A stretch of DNA of 11,608 nucleotides from Eubacteriales bacterium (GTDB lineage: Bacteria; Bacillota_A; Clostridia; Christensenellales; Aristaeellaceae), in contig JAUMYC010000015.1 in the NCBI GenBank assembly GCA_030528845.1, positions 9,874-21,481 on the forward strand, in the 5' to 3' direction. The notes below the pieces were generated by a model that was not told where the DNA came from, ran no database searches, and saw nothing but the letters and a program-made list of their open reading frames with translations. This document shows, piece after piece, positions 1 to 11,608 of the stretch (positions are counted from its first letter, which is position 1; the number at the start of each line of letters is the position of its first letter). The translations under genes and the position numbers were made by a program.

Positions 1-150
1 CTCCTGCGCGTCGCGGCGGCGCTGGAACGGCGCAGCGAGCATCCGCTGGCCCGCGCCATCTGCGAATACTGCGACGCGCGCGGCGTGGCGGGCGAAACGC
101 CCGAAGGCTTCGAGGCCATCGCGGGGCGCGGCGTGCGCGGCCTGATCGAC
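1..150 (+). pseudogene. P1B-type heavy-metal ATPase, internal fragment, fused in frame to uxaC
   Basis: The reading frame is open from base 1 and its first 50 codons are not uronate isomerase. They carry SEHPLA (nt 34-51), the nucleotide-domain motif of P1B metal-pumping ATPases (CopA, ZntA, CadA), whose His contacts the ATP adenine. About 24 residues later comes GRGVRG (nt 124-141), matching the GxGxxG loop of the same domain. Order and spacing fit the family. The metal-binding, membrane and DKTGT phosphorylation segments lie upstream of the window or are absent. The remaining ATPase (DGVND motif, last helices) is missing because the frame passes into UxaC at about codons 47-51. The substrate cannot be told from this piece. 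It is either a broken gene or one side of an assembly chimera, and no working pump can be encoded here. Confidence 0.8.
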
Positions 151-1119
151 ATGAGCAACGTGCGCTTCATCGGCACGACGGACGACCCGGTCGATTCTCT
201 GGAATGGCATGCGAAGATCGCTGCCGACCCGGCTTTCAAGACCACCGTCGCGCCCTCCTTCCGCCCGGACAAGGCGCTCAATATCGACAAGCCCGGCTGG
301 AAGGAATACATCGCCTCTCTGGGCGAGGTCTCCGGCGTTGAGATCAAGGACATCGACAGCCTCGAAGAGGCCCTGCGCGGCCGCATCGAGCATTTTGCGG
401 CGCACGGATGTAAGGCCAGCGACCATGGCCTCGATTTTATGGTCTATGCAGAGGCGACCGGAGAAGAGCTCAGCGAGATCATCCGCAGGGGCCTCGCGGG
501 CGAGGAGACCACCGCGCAGGAAGCCGCCGCGCTCAAGACCGCGCTGCTGCTCTTCTGTGCAGGCGAATATGTGCGCCTCGGCTGGGCCATGCAGATCCAC
601 TACAACGCGCTGCGCAACCCCAACAGCGCCATGCTCGCCAAGCTCGGCCCGGACACCGGCTTTGACTGCGTGGGCCCGAACAACGGCTCCGCCGCCATGG
701 CGAAATTCCTCGACGCCGCCTATAAGGCCGGCAAGCTGCCCAAGACGATCCTCTACAGCCTCGACGGCACGGACAATCTCTTCCTCGACAGCCTCATCGG
801 TGCGTTCCAGGGCACCGAGCTGCCCGGCAAGATCCAGCACGGCAGCGCATGGTGGTTCAACGACACCAAGCAGGGCATGATCGACCAGCTCGTCAGCCTC
901 GCCAACCTGAGCATTCTGGGCAATTTCGTCGGCATGCTCACCGACTCCCGCTCCTTCCTGAGCTACACCCGCCACGAATACTTCCGCCGCATCCTGTGCG
1001 ATCTGATCGGCGGCTGGATCGAAGAGGGCGAATATTCGGCGGATCTCGAATACGCCGGCAGGCTCGTGCAGGACATCTGCTGCGGCAACGCAGTCCGCTA
1101 CTTTGGATTGGAGGATTAA
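151..1119 (+). CDS. uxaC: Glucuronate isomerase (uronate isomerase), C-terminal two thirds only
   Basis: UxaC interconverts D-glucuronate and D-fructuronate (and galacturonate and tagaturonate) in the cytoplasm, the first step of hexuronate breakdown. From about codon 51 the frame aligns closely with E. coli UxaC as I recall it: GTTDDP just after the junction, RPDK at nt 262-273, HGCKASDHG, then GSAWWFND and LTDSRSFLSYTRHEYFRR near the C-terminus. The 322 residues match the C-terminal part of a roughly 470-residue family. The first ~150 residues, including the N-terminal HxH metal-binding motif, are replaced by ATPase sequence, so the encoded protein should be inactive as read here. A proper start is not visible, and the start given is only the first UxaC-like codon. 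The stop lies 3 nt before uxuA and GGAGG at 1109-1113 is the uxuA ribosome binding site, so the two are co-transcribed. Confidence 0.9.
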   Translation: MSNVRFIGTTDDPVDSLEWHAKIAADPAFKTTVAPSFRPDKALNIDKPGWKEYIASLGEVSGVEIKDIDSLEEALRGRIEHFAAHGCKASDHGLDFMVYAEATGEELSEIIRRGLAGEETTAQEAAALKTALLLFCAGEYVRLGWAMQIHYNALRNPNSAMLAKLGPDTGFDCVGPNNGSAAMAKFLDAAYKAGKLPKTILYSLDGTDNLFLDSLIGAFQGTELPGKIQHGSAWWFNDTKQGMIDQLVSLANLSILGNFVGMLTDSRSFLSYTRHEYFRRILCDLIGGWIEEGEYSADLEYAGRLVQDICCGNAVRYFGLED

Positions 1120-5284: not shown

Positions 5285-5324
5285 AAAACGCCGAGAAGAG
5301 GAACCGTCCTCTTGTCGGCGTTTT
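5285..5324 (+). terminator. Strong, probably bidirectional rho-independent terminator
   Basis: Two 18-nt arms (5285-5302 and 5307-5324) pair with a single mismatch around a 4-nt loop ACCG. The arm ends are AAAA on the left and TTTT on the right, so it can stop transcription in both directions. It isolates the regulator/membrane-protein unit from the isomerase promoter 20 nt further on. Confidence 0.88.
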
Positions 5325-5344
5325 GCTCTGCACGGGCGCGTTGG

Positions 5345-5373
5345 TGGACAAGCCCGAAAAGAAGGATTATAAT
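5345..5373 (+). promoter_or_regulatory. Near-consensus sigma-A promoter for the sugar isomerase gene
   Basis: TGGACA (5345-5350, 5 of 6 to TTGACA), a 17-bp spacer and a perfect TATAAT (5368-5373). Transcription should start near 5380. This rules out the ATG at 5374 as translation start and leaves a leader of about 24 nt before ATG 5404. It is the strongest-looking promoter in the window. Confidence 0.82.
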
Positions 5374-5403
5374 ATGAAAAAGACTGCAAGGAGGCGTTTG
5401 ATT

Positions 5404-6282
5404 ATGCGAAAAAAAGGCTTGATCGGCGTGCAGATGTCCACCATCGCGCCGGCGAAAATGCCCGGCTTTGAGGCGTATGAGGTCATGGGCAAATTGGCGG
5501 ACATCGGCTTCCGCTGCGTGGAGATCTCGCAGGTGCCGATGACGAAGGAAAACGTGGCGGGCTTTCGCAGGGCGATCGACCGGCTGGGCTTTCGGGTCTC
5601 CTCGCTCACGGCGTCGATCGATCCCATGGCGCCCGGCATGCCGGGAGAATACCTCTCCGTGCCGGAGGATTATCAAAAAATGCTCGACGACGCGCGCACG
5701 CTCGGCTGCGACCTGTTTCGCATCGGCATGATGCCCATGAGCGCGATCGGCGACGTGCAAAAGTGCATAGACTTTGCCAAGCGCGCCGAGGAATACGCGC
5801 TCAAGCTCAAGGAAGACGGCTTCGACCTGTATTATCATAACCATCACATCGAGTTTTTGAAGCTGGAAGGGAAATATCTTCTGGATATCCTGCGCGAAAA
5901 CGCGCCGCATTTGGGCTTTGAGCTCGACACCCATTGGATCCATCGCGGGGGCGAAAACCCGGTGGAGATCATCCGCAAATATGCCGGCAGCGTGCGCCTT
6001 CTGCATCTGAAGGATTACAAGATCGCCAATGTCGAAATGCCGGATCTGCGCGGCCCGGACGGCATGGCGCGCTTTGTCACGGCGTTTTTTGACAAGCCCG
6101 TGCGCTTTGCGGAGCTCGGCGCGGGCTCGCTGCCCATCAAGGCGTGCATCGAGGCCGGCTTAGAGGGCGGCGCGGAATACTTCCTCATCGAGCAGGACGA
6201 TTCCTACGGCAGAGACCCCTTCGATTGCCTGCGCGACTCGCGCGCGCATCTGATCGAGCTGGGCTATGCGGACTGGTTCTGA
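5404..6282 (+). CDS. Sugar phosphate isomerase/epimerase-like TIM-barrel protein
   Basis: 292-residue protein of the xylose-isomerase-like TIM barrel superfamily (COG1082-type, with IolE, epimerases and endonuclease IV). Likely metal ligands sit at the ends of successive strands: YHNHHIEF (Glu150), ELDTHW (Asp175), HLKD (His201) and ELGAG (Glu237), the Glu-Asp-His-Glu set of this family, with His147/His177 as candidate substrate contacts. The N-terminus GLIGVQMSTI is the usual first strand. The substrate is unknown; a keto-sugar or sugar acid isomerisation or epimerisation is the usual role. The ATG at 5404 is chosen over 5374 because AAGGAGG (5388-5394) lies 9 nt before it and the promoter's TATAAT abuts 5374. 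It is followed after 4 nt by a YjbR-type gene. Its own strong promoter and the preceding terminator separate it from the regulator unit. Confidence 0.85.
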   Translation: MRKKGLIGVQMSTIAPAKMPGFEAYEVMGKLADIGFRCVEISQVPMTKENVAGFRRAIDRLGFRVSSLTASIDPMAPGMPGEYLSVPEDYQKMLDDARTLGCDLFRIGMMPMSAIGDVQKCIDFAKRAEEYALKLKEDGFDLYYHNHHIEFLKLEGKYLLDILRENAPHLGFELDTHWIHRGGENPVEIIRKYAGSVRLLHLKDYKIANVEMPDLRGPDGMARFVTAFFDKPVRFAELGAGSLPIKACIEAGLEGGAEYFLIEQDDSYGRDPFDCLRDSRAHLIELGYADWF

Positions 6283-6286
6283 CAGG

Positions 6287-6664
6287 ATGGATCGGAACGA
6301 TGTCGCGCGGCTGATCCGCAACGCATACGGCGTCGAGCCGGAAACGCCTTGGCCCAAATATCCGGGCAATCAGGTCTATCGCGGCGGCAGCGGGAAATGG
6401 TTCGCGCTGGTGATGGACGTGGCGGCGGAAAAGCTCGGCCTGCCCGGCGATGGGAACATGGAGATCATGAACGTGAAATGCGACCCGGCGCTGCTCGGCT
6501 CGCTGCTGAGCGACGAAGGCTTTTTCCCTGCCTACCACATGAACAAGGCAAACTGGATCAGCGTCGTGCTGAACGAAAAAACGGACGGAGAGGCGATCCG
6601 CTTTCTGCTGCGCAGGAGCTTCGAGCTGACCGGCGGGCGGCAGAGCCGACCGAAAAAAGAATAA
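6287..6664 (+). CDS. MmcQ/YjbR family (DUF419) protein
   Basis: 125 residues matching the MmcQ/YjbR family along its length: an N-terminal helix with YGVEPE, then PWPKYPGN (21-28), GKWFALVMDV (36-45), LGLPGDG, NVKCDP (62-67), GSLL, FPAYHMNK (80-87) and WISVVL. The fold is CyaY-like. Members are often labelled DNA-binding, but the biochemical role is not established. The ATG at 6287 is preferred because family members start with M-x-R/K-x-x-V; it lies 4 nt after the isomerase stop with almost no ribosome binding site of its own, so translation is probably coupled to the isomerase. An ATG at 6266 would give a 7-residue longer form overlapping the upstream gene by 17 nt. It is last in its operon; no clear + strand terminator with a T-run follows. 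Confidence 0.9.
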   Translation: MDRNDVARLIRNAYGVEPETPWPKYPGNQVYRGGSGKWFALVMDVAAEKLGLPGDGNMEIMNVKCDPALLGSLLSDEGFFPAYHMNKANWISVVLNEKTDGEAIRFLLRRSFELTGGRQSRPKKE

Positions 6665-6698
6665 AGCAAAACCACCCGGAATGATAGGGCGACATAAA

Positions 6699-6736
6699 AC
6701 AGTACCAGGGACGGTGAGATGCTTTCCTGGTACTGT
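6699..6736. repeat. REP-like palindrome with 11-bp arms
   Basis: ACAGTACCAGG (6699-6709) and CCTGGTACTGT (6726-6736) are perfectly complementary around a 16-nt loop that contains GGACGG. The core resembles the AGGGACGGT palindromes that I recall as dispersed REP-type repeats in Firmicutes. Read on the minus strand it is followed by TTTTAT, read on the plus strand by AAAGG. It may be a REP/MITE relic in the convergent intergenic space. A weaker 6-bp inverted repeat (TATCGG 6761-6766, CCGATA 6775-6780) lies just downstream. Confidence 0.55.
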
Positions 6737-6813
6737 AAAGGTGGATTTGGTACGATAGGATATCGGCAAACTGTCCGATAAACTGGAATAGGCCCAATTG
6801 CTGCGCCGCGCCA

Positions 6814-6910
6814 GAGCCTCCCCTGTGTAAGGGGAGGTGCCCCGCAGGGGCGGAGGGGTTGTCAATCCCTCAGTCAGCTTCGCTGACAGCTCCCTTTACA
6901 CAAGGGAGCC
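6814..6910. repeat. Composite palindromic intergenic repeat (MITE-like), about 97 bp
   Basis: Four hairpins in tandem: CCTCCCC/GGGGAGG (6817-6823, 6831-6837), GCCCC/GGGGC (6839-6851), GTCAGC/GCTGAC (6873-6878, 6882-6887) and CTCCCTT/AAGGGAG (6890-6896, 6902-6908). The first hairpin and the reverse complement of the last share TGTGTAA and flanking CTCCC/GGGAG, so the outer ends form imperfect terminal inverted repeats. I recall closely similar units, ending in CTCCCTTTACACAAGGGAGCC, scattered between genes of gut Clostridia. It encodes nothing, lies between convergent genes, and is probably a non-autonomous repeat element. Confidence 0.7.
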
Positions 6911-6933
6911 TTTCCGAAACCGATACAAAACGC

Positions 6934-6970
6934 AAAAATCCGACCTACGATCGTAATCGTAGGTCGGATT
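6934..6970 (-). terminator. Rho-independent terminator of the MATE/CARF-HEPN operon
   Basis: A perfect 15-bp stem (6937-6951 and 6956-6970) with a 4-nt loop. On the minus strand it is followed by TTTTT (AAAAA at 6934-6938 on the plus strand), and it lies about 60 nt after the CARF-HEPN stop. It could also slow + strand read-through from the isomerase operon, though the + strand side has only a delayed T-run. Confidence 0.88.
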
Positions 6971-7032
6971 AACTGTTTTACGAACACCGCGCGAAAACGG
7001 GTGGTTTTGCTTGTATGCGCCAAGGCGCGGAA

Positions 7033-8958
7033 TTATTCCGTCGGCATATCGTCCTGCGGCCTGAGCATGCGCACGTTGATCTGCAGATCCTGTCCGTTGT
7101 AGGAGCAGGAATAGGTATCCTCGAGCAGCAAATCGGGGGCGAGCCCGGTGAGCGGCGCGAGCCTGTGTTCGGCGGTGTAGGCGCGGAACTGCCAGCCGCT
7201 GATGCAGATCGGCTCTGCAGTCTTTTGTACCTTTGCGCAGGCCGCGCGATAGATGCGCAGGAAGCGCTCGATCGCCTTTTGCAGCAGCAGGAAGTTTTCG
7301 TTTTCGTGCAGCTCCTCCTGATGGGCGAGCGCGCGCTCCTCGCTGCGCGCATGACTGACCTGATTACGCAGGTTGCCGATCTCATAGTAATGCAGGAAGA
7401 TGTCATAGAGCATGTTGTCGTCGCCAAGATCTGAGTAAGTGTTGCACAGCATGGGATAGGCGCCGTGCAGCTGATCCACCAGCACCTGCGAGAGATCCTG
7501 GGAGACTTTTTCTCTGGGCTGGCGGTTGTTGATCACGCTGCGCGGGTAGTTCTTCAGGAAGAAGTGGTCCAGATCGTTGAACACATAGCGGCATTTGGGG
7601 ATCTCGTTCCAAAAGAGAAGATTCCAGCTCTCCAGCGCCTTGCCAACGTCTTCCACGCTGCGCGCGTAATAGTAGATGCCGCGCCGCACGATATCCGACG
7701 GCACGAGGGCTTCGATCATCGTCAGCGCCTGCTGGTAGAACTGCTTGCGCAGCGCCCAGCTGATCAGCGCCGGTACGCTGACTTCCTCCCCTTCGAGCAG
7801 ATCGCCGTAGTCGCGCTCGATGCCCTGACGCAGGACGGAAAAGAGCGACGTGCCGGTGTCGGTGCTCCTGCGGGGCTGCTCATTCATGCGGCGGAAGATC
7901 ATCTTCAGCGCCTGTATGCCGTAGGTAAGGTCGGACATATTGCACATCGAAACGCCCACGTCCACATATTTCATCGCCTTGAGCAGGTTCAGCACGGCGG
8001 GGTCTTTCACTTCGTGGCGCGTACAGAATTCCTCGAGCAGCTCCATCTTGCCGTATCTGACGAAGGCCTGCATGCCCGAGAGCAGAGTCTCGACTTCGTA
8101 GCGGCCGATCTCGTCGTCGATGGAATGGGTGAAGCGGTCGGGATGCAGACGGGTGTGGATGATGCTCTTGACGCGGAAGCGCTCGTTGGAGCAGTAGACC
8201 ATTGCGAGCATGGACCACATGGTGTAGCTGTCGGCCTTGTCCATGCCGTGGATGTCGATGTAGATATTCACGCCTTTTACCAGGCGCATGGCGAGGTTGT
8301 TGATCATTTTCACCATGCTTTCGATGGTGAAGCTGCCCTTTTCGTCCTTTTCCATGGGGACAAAGCGCGCGGAAACGGCCTCGTTGCTGCGCAGGGCGTT
8401 CATCCTGAAAAACGGGTTCATCTGCGCAAACATCATATGCTTGATCCAGCGCTCGTCCTTCGCATTCTGCGGCTCGGCCATGACTTTTTTATATTGCTCG
8501 AAAGCCTCGGGCGTAGTGGCCGCCTTCAGGAAGCGGTTGCCGCGTCCGCCGGAGAAGGCGCGGCGCATGAGCGCCAGCAGCTCGCTGCGCTGCTCCTCCG
8601 TTTTTTCGTAGAGGATATCGTCTGTCTCGATGTCGAGCCTGTCGAGATATTGAGAGATGCGATAGCAGAAGAAGTCGTATTCGCACACGGCGTCAAGGCT
8701 GCTCTGCACGGGCAGGGTATAGCTGCTCAGAGGGCGCGGCTTCTCGGCCTGCGCCCCTCCGGCGCCTTTGGGCCCGAGCACGAGGATCTCGTCGATGTTG
8801 TATTGCGAGAGGATGTATTTCGTACCCGCCTCGGCGCTGCTGATGCCCGTACAGAAGCGCAGCTCGCCGTGCGTGTCGGTGCTGGAATAATATTCGGCGT
8901 GCAGATGATCCTTTGTGAAGCCCAGAGTGGTGATCAGAATGTTTTTCTCTTTGTTCAT
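7033..8958 (-). CDS. CARF-HEPN (Csx1/TM1812-like) putative nucleotide-activated ribonuclease, no CRISPR locus nearby
   Basis: 641 residues. The N-terminus ILITTLGF (7-14) and later IDEILVLGPKGA look like the first strands of a CARF (Rossmann-like) sensor. NIYIDIHGMDKADS has DIHG (235-238), matching the DxTHG signature of Csx1/TM1812-type CRISPR proteins. LLSGMQAFVRYGKMELLEEF resembles the helix after the CARF domain in these proteins, and LRNQVSHA gives R531-N-Q-V-S-H536, the HEPN RNase motif Rx4H. Family members bind cyclic oligoadenylate made by Cas10 and degrade RNA. About 100 residues follow the HEPN motif, longer than usual, with a beta-rich tail of unknown role. The start codon overlaps the MATE stop by one base (TAATG), with GGAGG inside the MATE end, so translation is coupled. 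No array or cas gene is visible. Assignment rests on motifs seen by eye; the ligand and activity are inference. Confidence 0.72.
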   Translation of the reverse strand: MNKEKNILITTLGFTKDHLHAEYYSSTDTHGELRFCTGISSAEAGTKYILSQYNIDEILVLGPKGAGGAQAEKPRPLSSYTLPVQSSLDAVCEYDFFCYRISQYLDRLDIETDDILYEKTEEQRSELLALMRRAFSGGRGNRFLKAATTPEAFEQYKKVMAEPQNAKDERWIKHMMFAQMNPFFRMNALRSNEAVSARFVPMEKDEKGSFTIESMVKMINNLAMRLVKGVNIYIDIHGMDKADSYTMWSMLAMVYCSNERFRVKSIIHTRLHPDRFTHSIDDEIGRYEVETLLSGMQAFVRYGKMELLEEFCTRHEVKDPAVLNLLKAMKYVDVGVSMCNMSDLTYGIQALKMIFRRMNEQPRRSTDTGTSLFSVLRQGIERDYGDLLEGEEVSVPALISWALRKQFYQQALTMIEALVPSDIVRRGIYYYARSVEDVGKALESWNLLFWNEIPKCRYVFNDLDHFFLKNYPRSVINNRQPREKVSQDLSQVLVDQLHGAYPMLCNTYSDLGDDNMLYDIFLHYYEIGNLRNQVSHARSEERALAHQEELHENENFLLLQKAIERFLRIYRAACAKVQKTAEPICISGWQFRAYTAEHRLAPLTGLAPDLLLEDTYSCSYNGQDLQINVRMLRPQDDMPTE

Positions 8959-10289
8959 TATACCCCTCCGCCGTGTTTGATGGTGCGGTGATAGCGGTGC
9001 TGCAGCAGCGCCATGCGCACGAGCTGCGAGGCCAGCGAGCCAGCCCAGATGCCCCAGATGCCGCCCTGCAGCCAGACAGTGCCCACGAAGCTGACCGCGT
9101 TGAGCACGACCATGGAAATGATGGCGGCGTTCATGGTGAAGCGCACGTCGCCCGTGCCCTGGAAGACGCCGTTATAGATGATCTGGCGCGCCTGAATGGG
9201 CGAGATCACGCCGATGACGATGCAGGAGAGCATGCCCGTGCGGATGAACGCCTCTTCATCGCCGAAGAAGGCGTAGTAGGGGCGCCCAAAGGCGATGAAC
9301 AGCACCGAGAGGACGAGGGCCGCGATCATGCCCATGCGCAGGATCATGTCGGAATAGGCGCGCACGCCGTTGTCGTCCTTCGCGCCGAAGCTCTTGCCCA
9401 CGAGCGCGACCGCAGCCGCCTGCATGCCGCTGCCGAGCGCGAAGTTGATGTTCATCAGGTGCATGCCCACGGAATAGACCGACATGGAGAAGGAGCCGGT
9501 GTAGGCGGCGATGATGCCGGCGAGCAGGAAGCTCAGCCGAGTGGCAAGGTTTTCAGAGACGACCTTTTTCCACATGCCGAGGATATCCTTCAGGCTCGAC
9601 AGGGCAAAGCGGACGCGGTTTGCTATGCAATAATGCAGGCTGACGAAGGTGCCGGGCCGCAAGGCGAACGCCAGACACACGACCAGCGCGGCGGCTGTTC
9701 CGGCCACGGTCGCGATGGCAGCGCCGCGGATGCCCAGCGCGGGCGCGCCCCAATTGCCCTCGATGAGCATGTAGTTGAGCAGGATGTTCACGCCGCTCGA
9801 CACGATGTTGGAGACGAGAGTGAGCTTTGTGTGGCCGCAGCCGCGCTGCGCGGCGTTGATCAGCATGAAGATGATATTAAAGAGCATCCCGCCCATGACG
9901 ATGCGGAAATACAGCACGGAATCGGCCATGGTGTCCGGCTGGTTGCTGCACAGGCGCATGATCGGCTCGGCAAAGACAACGCACAGCGCGCTGATCGCCG
10001 CGCCCAACGCCAGCGAGATGCTAAGAGCGGTGATCAGAAGACGGTTTGCCGCCGGTCGGTCTCCCTTGCCGACGGCGCGCGCCGTGAGCGAGGAGACGGT
10101 GGTGTTGATGGCGAAAAACACGCACAGTACAAACAGGCGCGGCTGGTTCGTGACGGAAATGGCTGAAATGGCGGCAAGGCCCATCGAAGAGACCATCTTC
10201 GAGTCGATAACGGAGGCCATGGTCGTGAAGAGAGACTCCAATATGGCCGGAATGGATATTTTCAAGATCTCTCTGCGCTTTTTTTGCAT
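8958..10289 (-). CDS. MATE family multidrug/metabolite exporter
   Basis: 443-residue polytopic membrane protein with about 12 hydrophobic helices in two similar halves, as in MATE (MatE, NorM/DinF-like) Na+ or H+ antiporters. Typical features are the N-terminal REILKISIPAILESLF followed by Asp29 in VIDSKMVSSMG, QPRLF in helix 2, ARAVGKGD at the first loop, INAAQRGCGHTK before the middle helices, VGKSFGAKD at the repeat position in the second half, and VFQGTGDVRFT. Substrate cannot be read from the sequence. The ATG at 10289 is preferred over 10340 because the extended -10 box places the transcript start near 10348, leaving no room for a leader before 10340, and the protein family starts close to KKREIL. 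It forms a two-gene operon with the CARF-HEPN gene, whose ribosome binding site is encoded by its last GGGV codons. Confidence 0.92.
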   Translation of the reverse strand: MQKKRREILKISIPAILESLFTTMASVIDSKMVSSMGLAAISAISVTNQPRLFVLCVFFAINTTVSSLTARAVGKGDRPAANRLLITALSISLALGAAISALCVVFAEPIMRLCSNQPDTMADSVLYFRIVMGGMLFNIIFMLINAAQRGCGHTKLTLVSNIVSSGVNILLNYMLIEGNWGAPALGIRGAAIATVAGTAAALVVCLAFALRPGTFVSLHYCIANRVRFALSSLKDILGMWKKVVSENLATRLSFLLAGIIAAYTGSFSMSVYSVGMHLMNINFALGSGMQAAAVALVGKSFGAKDDNGVRAYSDMILRMGMIAALVLSVLFIAFGRPYYAFFGDEEAFIRTGMLSCIVIGVISPIQARQIIYNGVFQGTGDVRFTMNAAIISMVVLNAVSFVGTVWLQGGIWGIWAGSLASQLVRMALLQHRYHRTIKHGGGV

Positions 10290-10354
10290 GGATAAAACTC
10301 TCTTTTCTTTGTTTAATTTACGCCTCGGCTTCGGGCGCATATCTCTTTTATAAT

Positions 10355-10363
10355 ATTATATCA
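10355..10363 (-). promoter_or_regulatory. Extended -10 promoter of the MATE/CARF-HEPN operon
   Basis: On the minus strand TGATATAAT (complement of 10355-10363) is an extended -10 element (TGnTATAAT). No convincing -35 hexamer is seen: the T-rich stretch at the expected distance matches only about 3 of 6. The transcript would start near 10348, some 60 nt before ATG 10289. Confidence 0.6.
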
Positions 10364-10434
10364 GTAAAAAGAAAAGAAGAAAAGTATGTCGGCGCAAGCG
10401 CTGCGTTTTTTACGGAACAGGGAGGGCTTGCTGC

Positions 10435-10479
10435 GAAAAATCCCCCGCCTCCCGGCAAAACTCTCGGGAGGCGGGGGAT
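10435..10479 (-). terminator. Rho-independent terminator of the ccdA/thioredoxin operon
   Basis: A perfect 15-bp GC-rich stem (10440-10454 and 10465-10479) with a 10-nt loop, followed on the minus strand by TTTTT (AAAAA at 10436-10440 on the plus strand). It begins about 25 nt after the thioredoxin stop codon and separates that operon from the MATE promoter. Confidence 0.92.
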
Positions 10480-10503
10480 GCGTGTGCGGAAGGCTTGGCG
10501 CGC

Positions 10504-11118
10504 TCAGCCGGTGATCATATCGATGCCCTGCTGCAGGGCGTCGGCGCTCAGAGCGCCCGAGGCCTGCGCGATCAAGTGGCCGTCTGCGTCGATAAAATAG
10601 GTCGACGGGATGGAATAGACGCCGTAGGTCGAGGCTGCACTGCCGATATGATCGTAGAGGATGGGGAAGGTATAGCCGTTCTTTTCGATGAAGGCGCTTG
10701 CGCTCTGCTGCGTTTCGCGGCCTCCGTCGGTCAGGTTGACCATGACGAACTGCACGTCTTCGCCAAGCTGCTCGTATTTTTCCTGAAAGTCGGGCATCTC
10801 GCTCTGGCACGGGCCGCACCAGCTCGCCCAGAAGTTCAACACGACGGGCTTGCCGACGTACTCGCTCAGGCGCACCTCGTTGCCCTCCTTGTCAAAGGCG
10901 GTGAAATCCGGCGCAAGGAGCGCTGCGTCGTCTTCGTGGTCGTGCTCGGGCGCGCTTTCCTCAGCCGCAGCCGGCTCGTCCTCCGTCTGCGCGGGGGAAT
11001 GCACGAGCATCTGCTGCGCGTCCATGTTCTGCCCGAGGCGATCGTAGAGGATATACGCTCCCGCGATGATCAGGACGAACGCCAGAACCAACGCGGCGAG
11101 AGATTTCTTGTTGTTCAT
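10504..11118 (-). CDS. Membrane-anchored TlpA/ResA-like thioredoxin
   Basis: 204 residues: a short basic start MNNKK, one signal-anchor helix (7-25), an acidic and His-rich linker (about 45-66, with EHDHEDD) and a TlpA/ResA-type thioredoxin domain outside the membrane. It has PDFTAFDKEG, FWASWCGPC (redox Cys101 and Cys104) and the cis-proline loop SIPSTY (Pro171) followed by FID. Such proteins reduce or exchange thiols in the extracytoplasmic space, for example in cytochrome c maturation or oxidative repair; which one applies here is unknown, and no cytochrome gene is seen. ATG 11118 is preferred over GTG 11127 because AGAGGT lies 7 nt before it. The CcdA-type gene 44 nt upstream is the expected electron donor. 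No lipobox is visible, so anchoring is by the helix. Confidence 0.92.
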   Translation of the reverse strand: MNNKKSLAALVLAFVLIIAGAYILYDRLGQNMDAQQMLVHSPAQTEDEPAAAEESAPEHDHEDDAALLAPDFTAFDKEGNEVRLSEYVGKPVVLNFWASWCGPCQSEMPDFQEKYEQLGEDVQFVMVNLTDGGRETQQSASAFIEKNGYTFPILYDHIGSAASTYGVYSIPSTYFIDADGHLIAQASGALSADALQQGIDMITG

Positions 11119-11162
11119 TGTCTGCACCTCTTTTCAAATGGAGATCGGGATCCTGCCTGTCG

Positions 11163-11608
11163 TCAGCTCAGCAGGCTCAGCAGCCTGCCGAGCATGCCGG
11201 TGGCCATCAAAATGCCGATGACCACGAGCAGCGCGCCGCTGACGGCGTTGATGGTCTTGTAGTTCTTCTTGATCCAGTTAAACGCGCCCTTGAGATAATC
11301 GATCAGCACGGCGCTGAGGATGAAGGGGATGCCCAGCCCCAGCGAATAGGCCAGCAGCATCAGCATGCCCCGGAGCGCATGTCCCTGCTGGGAGGCCAGC
11401 ATCAGCGCGGAGCCGAGGAACGCGCCCACGCAGGGCGTCCAGCCCAGAGAGAAGATCACGCCGAAGAGCAGGGCGGAGAAGAAATTCATGTTCTGCGTGT
11501 TGACGTGACGGCTGCTGCCTTTGAAGAGCGTGAGCTTGAACACGCCCAGAAAATTCAGGCCGAAGAAGATCACGATCAGACCGGAGACGATGTTCACGGC
11601 GGTCTGAT
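11163..11608 (-). CDS. ccdA: CcdA/DsbD-type thiol-disulfide transmembrane transporter, 5' end beyond the window
   Basis: The last ~148 codons of a polytopic membrane protein; the frame is still open at the window edge, so the true start lies outside. Visible helices are GLIVIFFGLNFLGVF, SALLFGVIFSLGWTPCVGAFLGSALML, a helix around MLMLLAYSLGLGIPFIL, and a final one around SGALLVVIGILMATGML. GWTPCVGAFLGS is the signature of CcdA/DsbD transmembrane domains and carries one of the two reactive cysteines; the other should be in the missing first helix. The protein takes electrons from cytoplasmic thioredoxin to an extracytoplasmic thioredoxin-like partner, which fits the membrane-anchored TlpA-like gene 44 nt downstream. 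About 85-90 residues are probably missing relative to the usual ~235. Confidence 0.9.
   Translation of the reverse strand, partial: QTAVNIVSGLIVIFFGLNFLGVFKLTLFKGSSRHVNTQNMNFFSALLFGVIFSLGWTPCVGAFLGSALMLASQQGHALRGMLMLLAYSLGLGIPFILSAVLIDYLKGAFNWIKKNYKTINAVSGALLVVIGILMATGMLGRLLSLLS

Follow-up and report, generated by a model that had tools for sequence, protein, structure and literature searches.

The window, by which we mean the whole 11,608-nucleotide stretch of DNA analyzed here, from a bacterium related to Clostridia, carries two overlapping genes on its minus strand. The downstream gene (7033..8958) is an ORF of 641 residues encoding a CARF-HEPN ribonuclease-like protein, in which a CARF domain occupies approximately residues 3-288, with a helical insert inside it at about 88-190, and is followed by a helical and HEPN part at about 290-612. 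A preliminary description of the locus had read the motifs ILITTLG, DIHG (235-238) and RNxxxH (531-536) in this gene, and all three are present in the ORF, the last as RNQVSH. It had also assigned the product to the Csx1-type ribonucleases, and both profile search and structure prediction agree. The PADLOC profile CARF2--CARF_HEPN matched the protein with an E-value of 1.9e-24, and the PDLC01830 match, at the same E-value, best covers residues 286-431; profiles related to the protein are already in PADLOC. An AlphaFold model of the single chain (pLDDT 84.8, pTM 0.66) was matched by Foldseek and VIA-align to Csx1-Crn2, Csx1, Csm6, Card1 and Can2, with a Csx1 ribonuclease as the top structural match. 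With CARF, linker and HEPN taken together, the closest fold was that of Marinitoga Csx1-Crn2 (8y6z, 8y7f, 8y7g), a type III ribonuclease fused to a ring nuclease, at about 12% identity and an rmsd of 4.6-7.9. The window protein differs from it in the helical insert of its CARF domain, and the match ends by residue 612, so that this alignment gives no sign of a Crn2 domain. A sequence search of solved structures with the window protein returned no relative and two chance hits. Taken together, we find a Rossmann-like CARF domain at the N-terminus, a HEPN domain with R-X4-H at the C-terminal side and a profile match to a named family, which makes this a CARF-HEPN protein of the Csx1/Csm6 kind.

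According to the available text of PMC10702470, mutation of either the arginine or the histidine of R-X4-H in a Csm6 abolished RNA cleavage. The RN...H pattern is kept in 75 of 76 core proteins of at least 560 residues, and the sole failure, L033, still has the R, N and H when aligned. For a closer comparison we aligned 106 stand-alone proteins, reduced to 99 by removal of near-duplicates at 90%, together with seven type III-side proteins. R531, N532 and H536 are kept in 98 of the 99 non-redundant stand-alone proteins, the exception (P0022) being truncated, and Q409 is kept in every one. A 16-protein alignment that includes type III-D cousins has W401, Q409-Q410, R531-N532 and H536 as invariant positions.

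Directly upstream of the CARF-HEPN gene, and overlooked in the preliminary description, lies a gene for a MATE family efflux transporter (8958..10340, minus strand; the ORF has 460 residues). Translation probably begins at the ATG at 10289 (MQKKRREIL), judging from comparison with L001, the closest CARF-HEPN locus found, whose adjoining MATE is 62% identical to that of the window. The product exceeds the curated cut-offs of the MATE family for both PF01554 (E 3.4e-46; 157.3 bits against 24.9) and TIGR00797 (176.9 bits against 147.4). WgkD, SolL and GntT, small natural product exporters by their NCBIfam names, belong to the MATE family like the window pump, but the window protein falls far under their equivalog cut-offs (best 112.8 bits against 510), and their family names make no mention of a CARF protein.

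The two genes share a single base in a stop/start overlap, TAATG, that we read from the sequence (8956..8960, minus strand) and that is immediately preceded by GGAGGGG. Upstream, a TATAAT read by eye (10355..10360, minus strand) is a possible -10 box of a two-gene operon; a consensus promoter scan of 6600-11608 found no complete promoter. In the gap between the MATE gene and a thioredoxin-like gene, a likely intrinsic terminator recognized by eye (10442..10477, minus strand) consists of a 13-bp G+C-rich stem, a 10-nt loop and then TTTTT, and here the terminator scan gives just a weaker sub-stem (10460-10443). A second terminator-like hairpin, with 15 pairs and a T-rich tail, lies downstream of the CARF-HEPN gene (6937..6970, minus strand; listed by the scan on both strands). 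Terminator-like sites number 12 in the scanned region, compared with 4.6 (sd 2.4) in shuffles. Given the gene overlap, the flanking hairpins and the TATAAT, MATE followed by CARF-HEPN looks like an operon of its own, and the two genes would share a single transcript.

The genes around the pair belong to sugar-acid catabolism (part of a glucuronate isomerase gene, mannonate dehydratase, D-mannonate oxidoreductase and a sugar-kinase-like gene), and the window also contains a regulator, a TIM-barrel protein, a YjbR protein and thiol-disulfide genes. An Rfam search of the window gave no RNA family at gathering thresholds. The ORF at 1-1119 (plus strand) begins with about 55 residues that resemble a heavy-metal P-type ATPase (TIGR01525, E 5.9e-8) and goes on as glucuronate isomerase from profile position 140; it is either a deletion fusion or an assembly join.

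A protein database search identified 28 relatives of the CARF-HEPN protein, the window protein included, at 28-100% identity. P0002 and P0004-P0008, which belong to the subclade of the window, are 49-54% identical. A profile search returned the identical set of 28, both searches having scored about 7990 candidates sharing the most words. From a scan of 84,980 species genomes we obtained 96 encoded relatives and kept 80 loci (L001-L080). By record titles, the relatives in our tree are mostly from Bacillota, with three from Actinomycetota and one from a spirochaete. The CARF-HEPN profile matches once in 41 of 50 carrier genomes. Full-length matches number three among 200 genomes from the family to which G002 belongs (Lachnospiraceae by title) and two among 391 genomes of its class, taken as Clostridia, with G002 counted in both, and we conclude from these counts that the CARF-HEPN family is sparse.

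The best-known role of CARF ribonucleases is that of output arm in type III CRISPR signaling. One explanation is that the window protein is a standard Csx1-like effector and responds to cyclic oligoadenylate from a type III system elsewhere in the genome, with the MATE neighbor being incidental. The intact CARF and HEPN domains are consistent with such a role, and the preliminary description had proposed, as one of two mechanisms, that the enzyme works in trans with a type III locus elsewhere. Its statement that no CRISPR locus lies beside the gene holds, as the window contains no array. No array was detected in loci L001-L080 either, using a script that required at least three exact 20-mers spaced 48-90; among other loci the script flags L163, L174, L176 and L178, as well as L154, which is a coding repeat by its look. 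By this array search and the Cas10 search below, the window family is not tied to type III loci or arrays in the way that type III ancillary effectors are.

We then searched for Cas10 in 50 carrier genomes, those of 50 of the 80 loci, all of them drafts of unreported completeness. Cas10 was found in four (G006, G010, G026 and, as a fragment, G043), but never on the contig that bears the CARF-HEPN gene, and clear Cas10 was not found in the other 46 drafts. PF22335 at E <= 1e-9 matches three of the 50 carriers (G006, G010 and G026) compared with 42 of 391 Clostridia, so that Cas10 at this threshold is no commoner in carriers. Above its curated cut-off, PF22335 matches eight of the 50 carriers, but also E. 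coli. We inspected singly the weaker matches in six genomes (L084-L089) and one GGDEF neighbor in L029; the six were rejected as Cas10, all being GGDEF proteins, and the match in L083 (G010) is Cas10-like. The Csm1 model adds the contig-end fragment of G043 (L102), a real Cas10 by its Cmr2 helical domain, and TIGR02578 exceeds its cut-off in one carrier genome. The genome of the closest relative (G001, locus L001) has no match with two Cas10 models. We conclude from these 50 drafts that the CARF-HEPN family as a whole shows no association with Cas10, and the proposed action in trans is unsupported at the level of the family.

As positive controls, we considered distant cousins of the protein. 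One of them lies beside Cas10d, a Cas5/Cas7 III-D protein and Csx20, identified by profile (L171), and another is accompanied by a Cas10 palm match (G602) and a detected array (L178). Type III genes were recognized by reading beside the cousins in L170 and L172, and for six of eight weak cousin matches a Cas10 palm match is no more than about 7 kb away. The type III cousins also have Csx20-like ring-nuclease genes as neighbors, recognized by profile in L171 (6873-7229) and by reading in L170 (9171-9602), L172 (6690-7055) and L178 (2006-2407).

The type III-D CARF2-HEPN (Csx1-like) effectors of Clostridia in L170, L171, L172 and L178 share the CARF domain, helical part and HEPN domain with the window protein and are matched by the same PADLOC models. 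They differ in adjoining type III genes, in having a GGxR motif and in having a short segment at the positions of window residues 88-190 (21-26 residues), whereas the window family is without GGxR and mostly has a long insert. Of the seven type III-side proteins in our alignment, four lie beside type III genes and the others are L175 and the L173 pair of G010, the type III locus of G010 being on another contig than that pair. The GGxR motif, which follows CARF strand 4, is present in all seven and missing from all 99 stand-alone proteins, which argues against an ordinary type III effector acting in trans. Position 241 is arginine in the seven type III-side proteins and mostly A, S, F or T in the stand-alone family. 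Lysine occupies it in the window protein, L001, P0002-P0007, L025 and P0022, and arginine in L017 and P0008. Because K241 is kept in the window protein (R in P0008), the pocket is still basic at this place, and members of the subclade of the window may bind nucleotides in the usual way, as the trans explanation would have it. The segment that matches window residues 88-190 has a median length of 110 residues in the stand-alone family (range 40-120, with four proteins having shorter inserts of 40-58 residues) and measures 21-30 residues in five type III-side proteins.

According to the available text of PMC4012209, a conserved basic residue after CARF strand 4 is part of the ligand pocket, and CARF families without it are suggested to bind other ligands; inserts are described that form a cap over the pocket and may determine which ligand it takes. 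The preliminary description had offered, besides action in trans, the possibility that the enzyme answers a different messenger. Since the motif after strand 4 differs and a helical insert is present, this second mechanism fits better than the first on such indirect evidence, and the family of the window protein would then answer a messenger other than that made by Cas10.

The CARF-HEPN pair of G010 (L173 1800-3878, plus strand, and 5316-7706, minus strand) combines long inserts (111 and 213) with an intact GGxR, and Cas10 and an array are on another contig of this genome (L174). This pair joins the stand-alone family with support of 100/99, while 29 stand-alone rows by themselves receive just 91/73. 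By its sequence features and placement, the L173 pair may be transitional, connecting type III effectors with the stand-alone family.

To determine how widely the pump accompanies the enzyme, we considered the 78 loci with a core ORF. Of 49 ORFs of at least 150 residues that lie immediately upstream in the same orientation, 18 encode a MATE, compared with seven of 614 other neighbor ORFs. The enrichment has a Fisher p-value of 5e-17, which overstates independence because the loci are related. The seven MATE genes elsewhere are divergent upstream (L004, L005), downstream (L013, L016) or more than 5 kb off (L025, L037, L053). Of the 78 rows in the CARF-HEPN tree, 21 have the MATE label and 57 do not; the label is present in 11 of 16 rows surrounding the window, in 17 of the 42 rows of its clade and in four of the 36 rows of the other clade. 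It needs 13 changes on this tree, at least 10 of them forced by starred branches, compared with 18.7 in shuffles. Seven loci stop at a contig edge upstream of CARF-HEPN, and contig ends explain only part of the absences. Thus, linkage to MATE is frequent near the window, and in the family as a whole only a minority of members show it. An upstream MATE is still too frequent for chance, which speaks against an incidental neighbor. Weighing this together with the Cas10 counts and the lost GGxR motif against the basic residue 241 and the four genomes with Cas10, we consider it very improbable that the window protein is a type III effector acting in trans.

Two kinds of MATE are linked to the CARF-HEPN genes: one, the window type, has 34-62% identity (36-50% for fragments), and the other, found in L041, L042, L044 and L048, has 20-24%. 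MATE and CARF-HEPN distances correlate (Mantel r 0.70, p 1e-4, 15 pairs), and the correlation rises to 0.91 without L004 and L005, whose MATE is divergently oriented. Such a correlation is expected from joint inheritance, and it could come from the species tree alone. Among 25 genomes chosen by hand, 15 known to be linked and 10 not, a window-type MATE (at least 34% identity) adjoins CARF-HEPN in all 15 linked genomes, the copy in G009 being a fragment at a contig end and that in G007 being broken, and one extra unlinked copy is present in G014. The best MATE in the 10 unlinked genomes reaches 30% identity at most. In L007 (3-922, plus strand), the linked MATE is broken into two ORFs and the adjoining CARF-HEPN gene is still open.

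We also built a MATE tree from 15 linked, 20 unlinked and 13 generic copies, the unlinked set being 19 top loci plus L114, some of them near-copies, with lower-scoring unlinked copies left out. The linked 15 and unlinked 20 fall on two sides of one branch with support of 99/99. At E <= 1e-60, the linked-MATE profile finds matches in 126 of 391 genomes, among them G002, which is linked. No CARF is present in the roughly 1.5-kb flanks of the 19 top-scoring unlinked MATE loci. A MATE subfamily wholly dedicated to CARF-HEPN was considered and rejected, since the subfamily also occurs alone in these genomes and loci. From these trees and counts, the pairing of MATE with CARF-HEPN looks old, yet the pump can live alone.

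In one clade, ABC transporter genes lie directly upstream of CARF-HEPN (L021 2-1885, L023 167-4554 and L024 2-3080), so that an exporter of another family occupies the position of MATE. Pfam identifies the one at L023 2365-4554, the remainder are assigned by BLAST cluster, and by reading they are bacteriocin-export-like.

The other neighbors of the relatives bear on a different explanation, in which the protein is a stress or envelope-signaling ribonuclease under partner-switch or second-messenger control and the pump is one of several membrane and signaling genes in its regulon. STAS-domain genes occur near CARF-HEPN in nine of 80 loci (10 ORFs), as at L014 12023-12319, L080 4657-4953, L031 2870-3175, L032 2056-2355, L037 2018-2329, L041 8019-8339, L048 8235-8588, L030 9276-11305 and L055 7555-9132. 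The gene order in L041 and L048 is STAS, MATE, CARF-HEPN, and in L030 and L055 the STAS domain is part of a fusion with APH-like and HATPase domains. Three Solobacterium loci have a GGDEF gene downstream of CARF-HEPN, identified by Pfam in L029 (12338-13498) and by BLAST cluster in L033 (6610-7776) and L034 (2237-3403). A gene with a RelA_SpoT domain is found 136 bp upstream of CARF-HEPN in L074 (165-869, plus strand); as a conserved partner it was rejected, its cluster being present in three of 80 loci (L074; L047 at about 0.7 kb; L064 at about 2.3 kb). These STAS, GGDEF and RelA_SpoT neighbors speak for such signaling control. Each link is limited to a few loci, GGDEF and GGDEF-EAL neighbors included, and none is seen in the window or beside L001, and we regard this explanation as quite improbable.

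HEPN ribonucleases are common abortive-infection effectors, which favors a third explanation: a CRISPR-independent abortive-infection switch in which a phage-triggered cyclase would make the ligand, the ribonuclease would arrest the cell, and the MATE would export excess ligand or serve as a second effector. The cousins are type III effectors by profile and by place, and the sparse distribution of the family (three of 200 and two of 391 genomes) is common for defense genes. Against it, a SMODS cyclase match was found in just one of the 50 carrier genomes, and no cyclase family is prominent among the neighbor clusters listed. In viral contigs, none of 168 pattern matches was a relative by tblastn. 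In addition, the scanned neighbors in the window are genes of sugar-acid catabolism, regulation, transport and redox functions. On balance we find an abortive-infection switch unlikely.

Instead, we favor a model that couples the enzyme to the pump. With no CRISPR genes alongside and an efflux pump in the same operon, the enzyme may obey a different chemical signal. In this model, the CARF-HEPN protein would be a homodimer whose CARF domain binds a small nucleotide-like ligand rather than cyclic oligoadenylate made by Cas10. Ligand binding would bring the R531/H536 HEPN site together and RNA would be cut, and as a result growth would slow or stop. The MATE pump, made from the same transcript, would export the ligand or a toxic compound that gives rise to it, and would thereby hold the ribonuclease off until the pump is overwhelmed. 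The relation between pump and ligand is the weakest step, and we propose it tentatively.

Computation supports the domains, the conserved catalytic motif, the overlapping genes, co-inheritance in part of the family, the missing association with Cas10 and the altered pocket motif. That a presumptive ribonuclease left CRISPR, probably changed its ligand and became coupled to a putative transporter is, in our judgment, an evenly balanced proposition. The full module, in which MATE sets the level of a new ligand not made by Cas10 and a re-shaped CARF pocket converts its build-up into RNA cleavage and growth arrest, is a possibility that falls short of being probable. If true, it would be a chemical-stress or antibiotic-sensing switch that was built from an antiviral part and paired with two kinds of MATE.

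CARF proteins outside CRISPR are known in general, according to the available text of PMC4012209 and PMC12669027, and the latter describes CARF homologs as abundant outside CRISPR-Cas. RtcR and other non-CRISPR CARF proteins, as far as the available text describes them, have a CARF sensor outside CRISPR like the window protein, but the output of RtcR is NtrC-like AAA+/sigma-54 and not HEPN, and the window protein still has K241. No description of CARF-HEPN paired with MATE came to light in the literature searched, which was short of most subscription papers.

A lineage that keeps the ribonuclease motif without Cas10 or the usual pocket motif, and in part with an exporter, would show that a sensor-effector can be reused for other signals. 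The family thus offers a concrete handle on what CARF domains outside CRISPR sense, and the linked pump suggests seeking the ligand among pump substrates.
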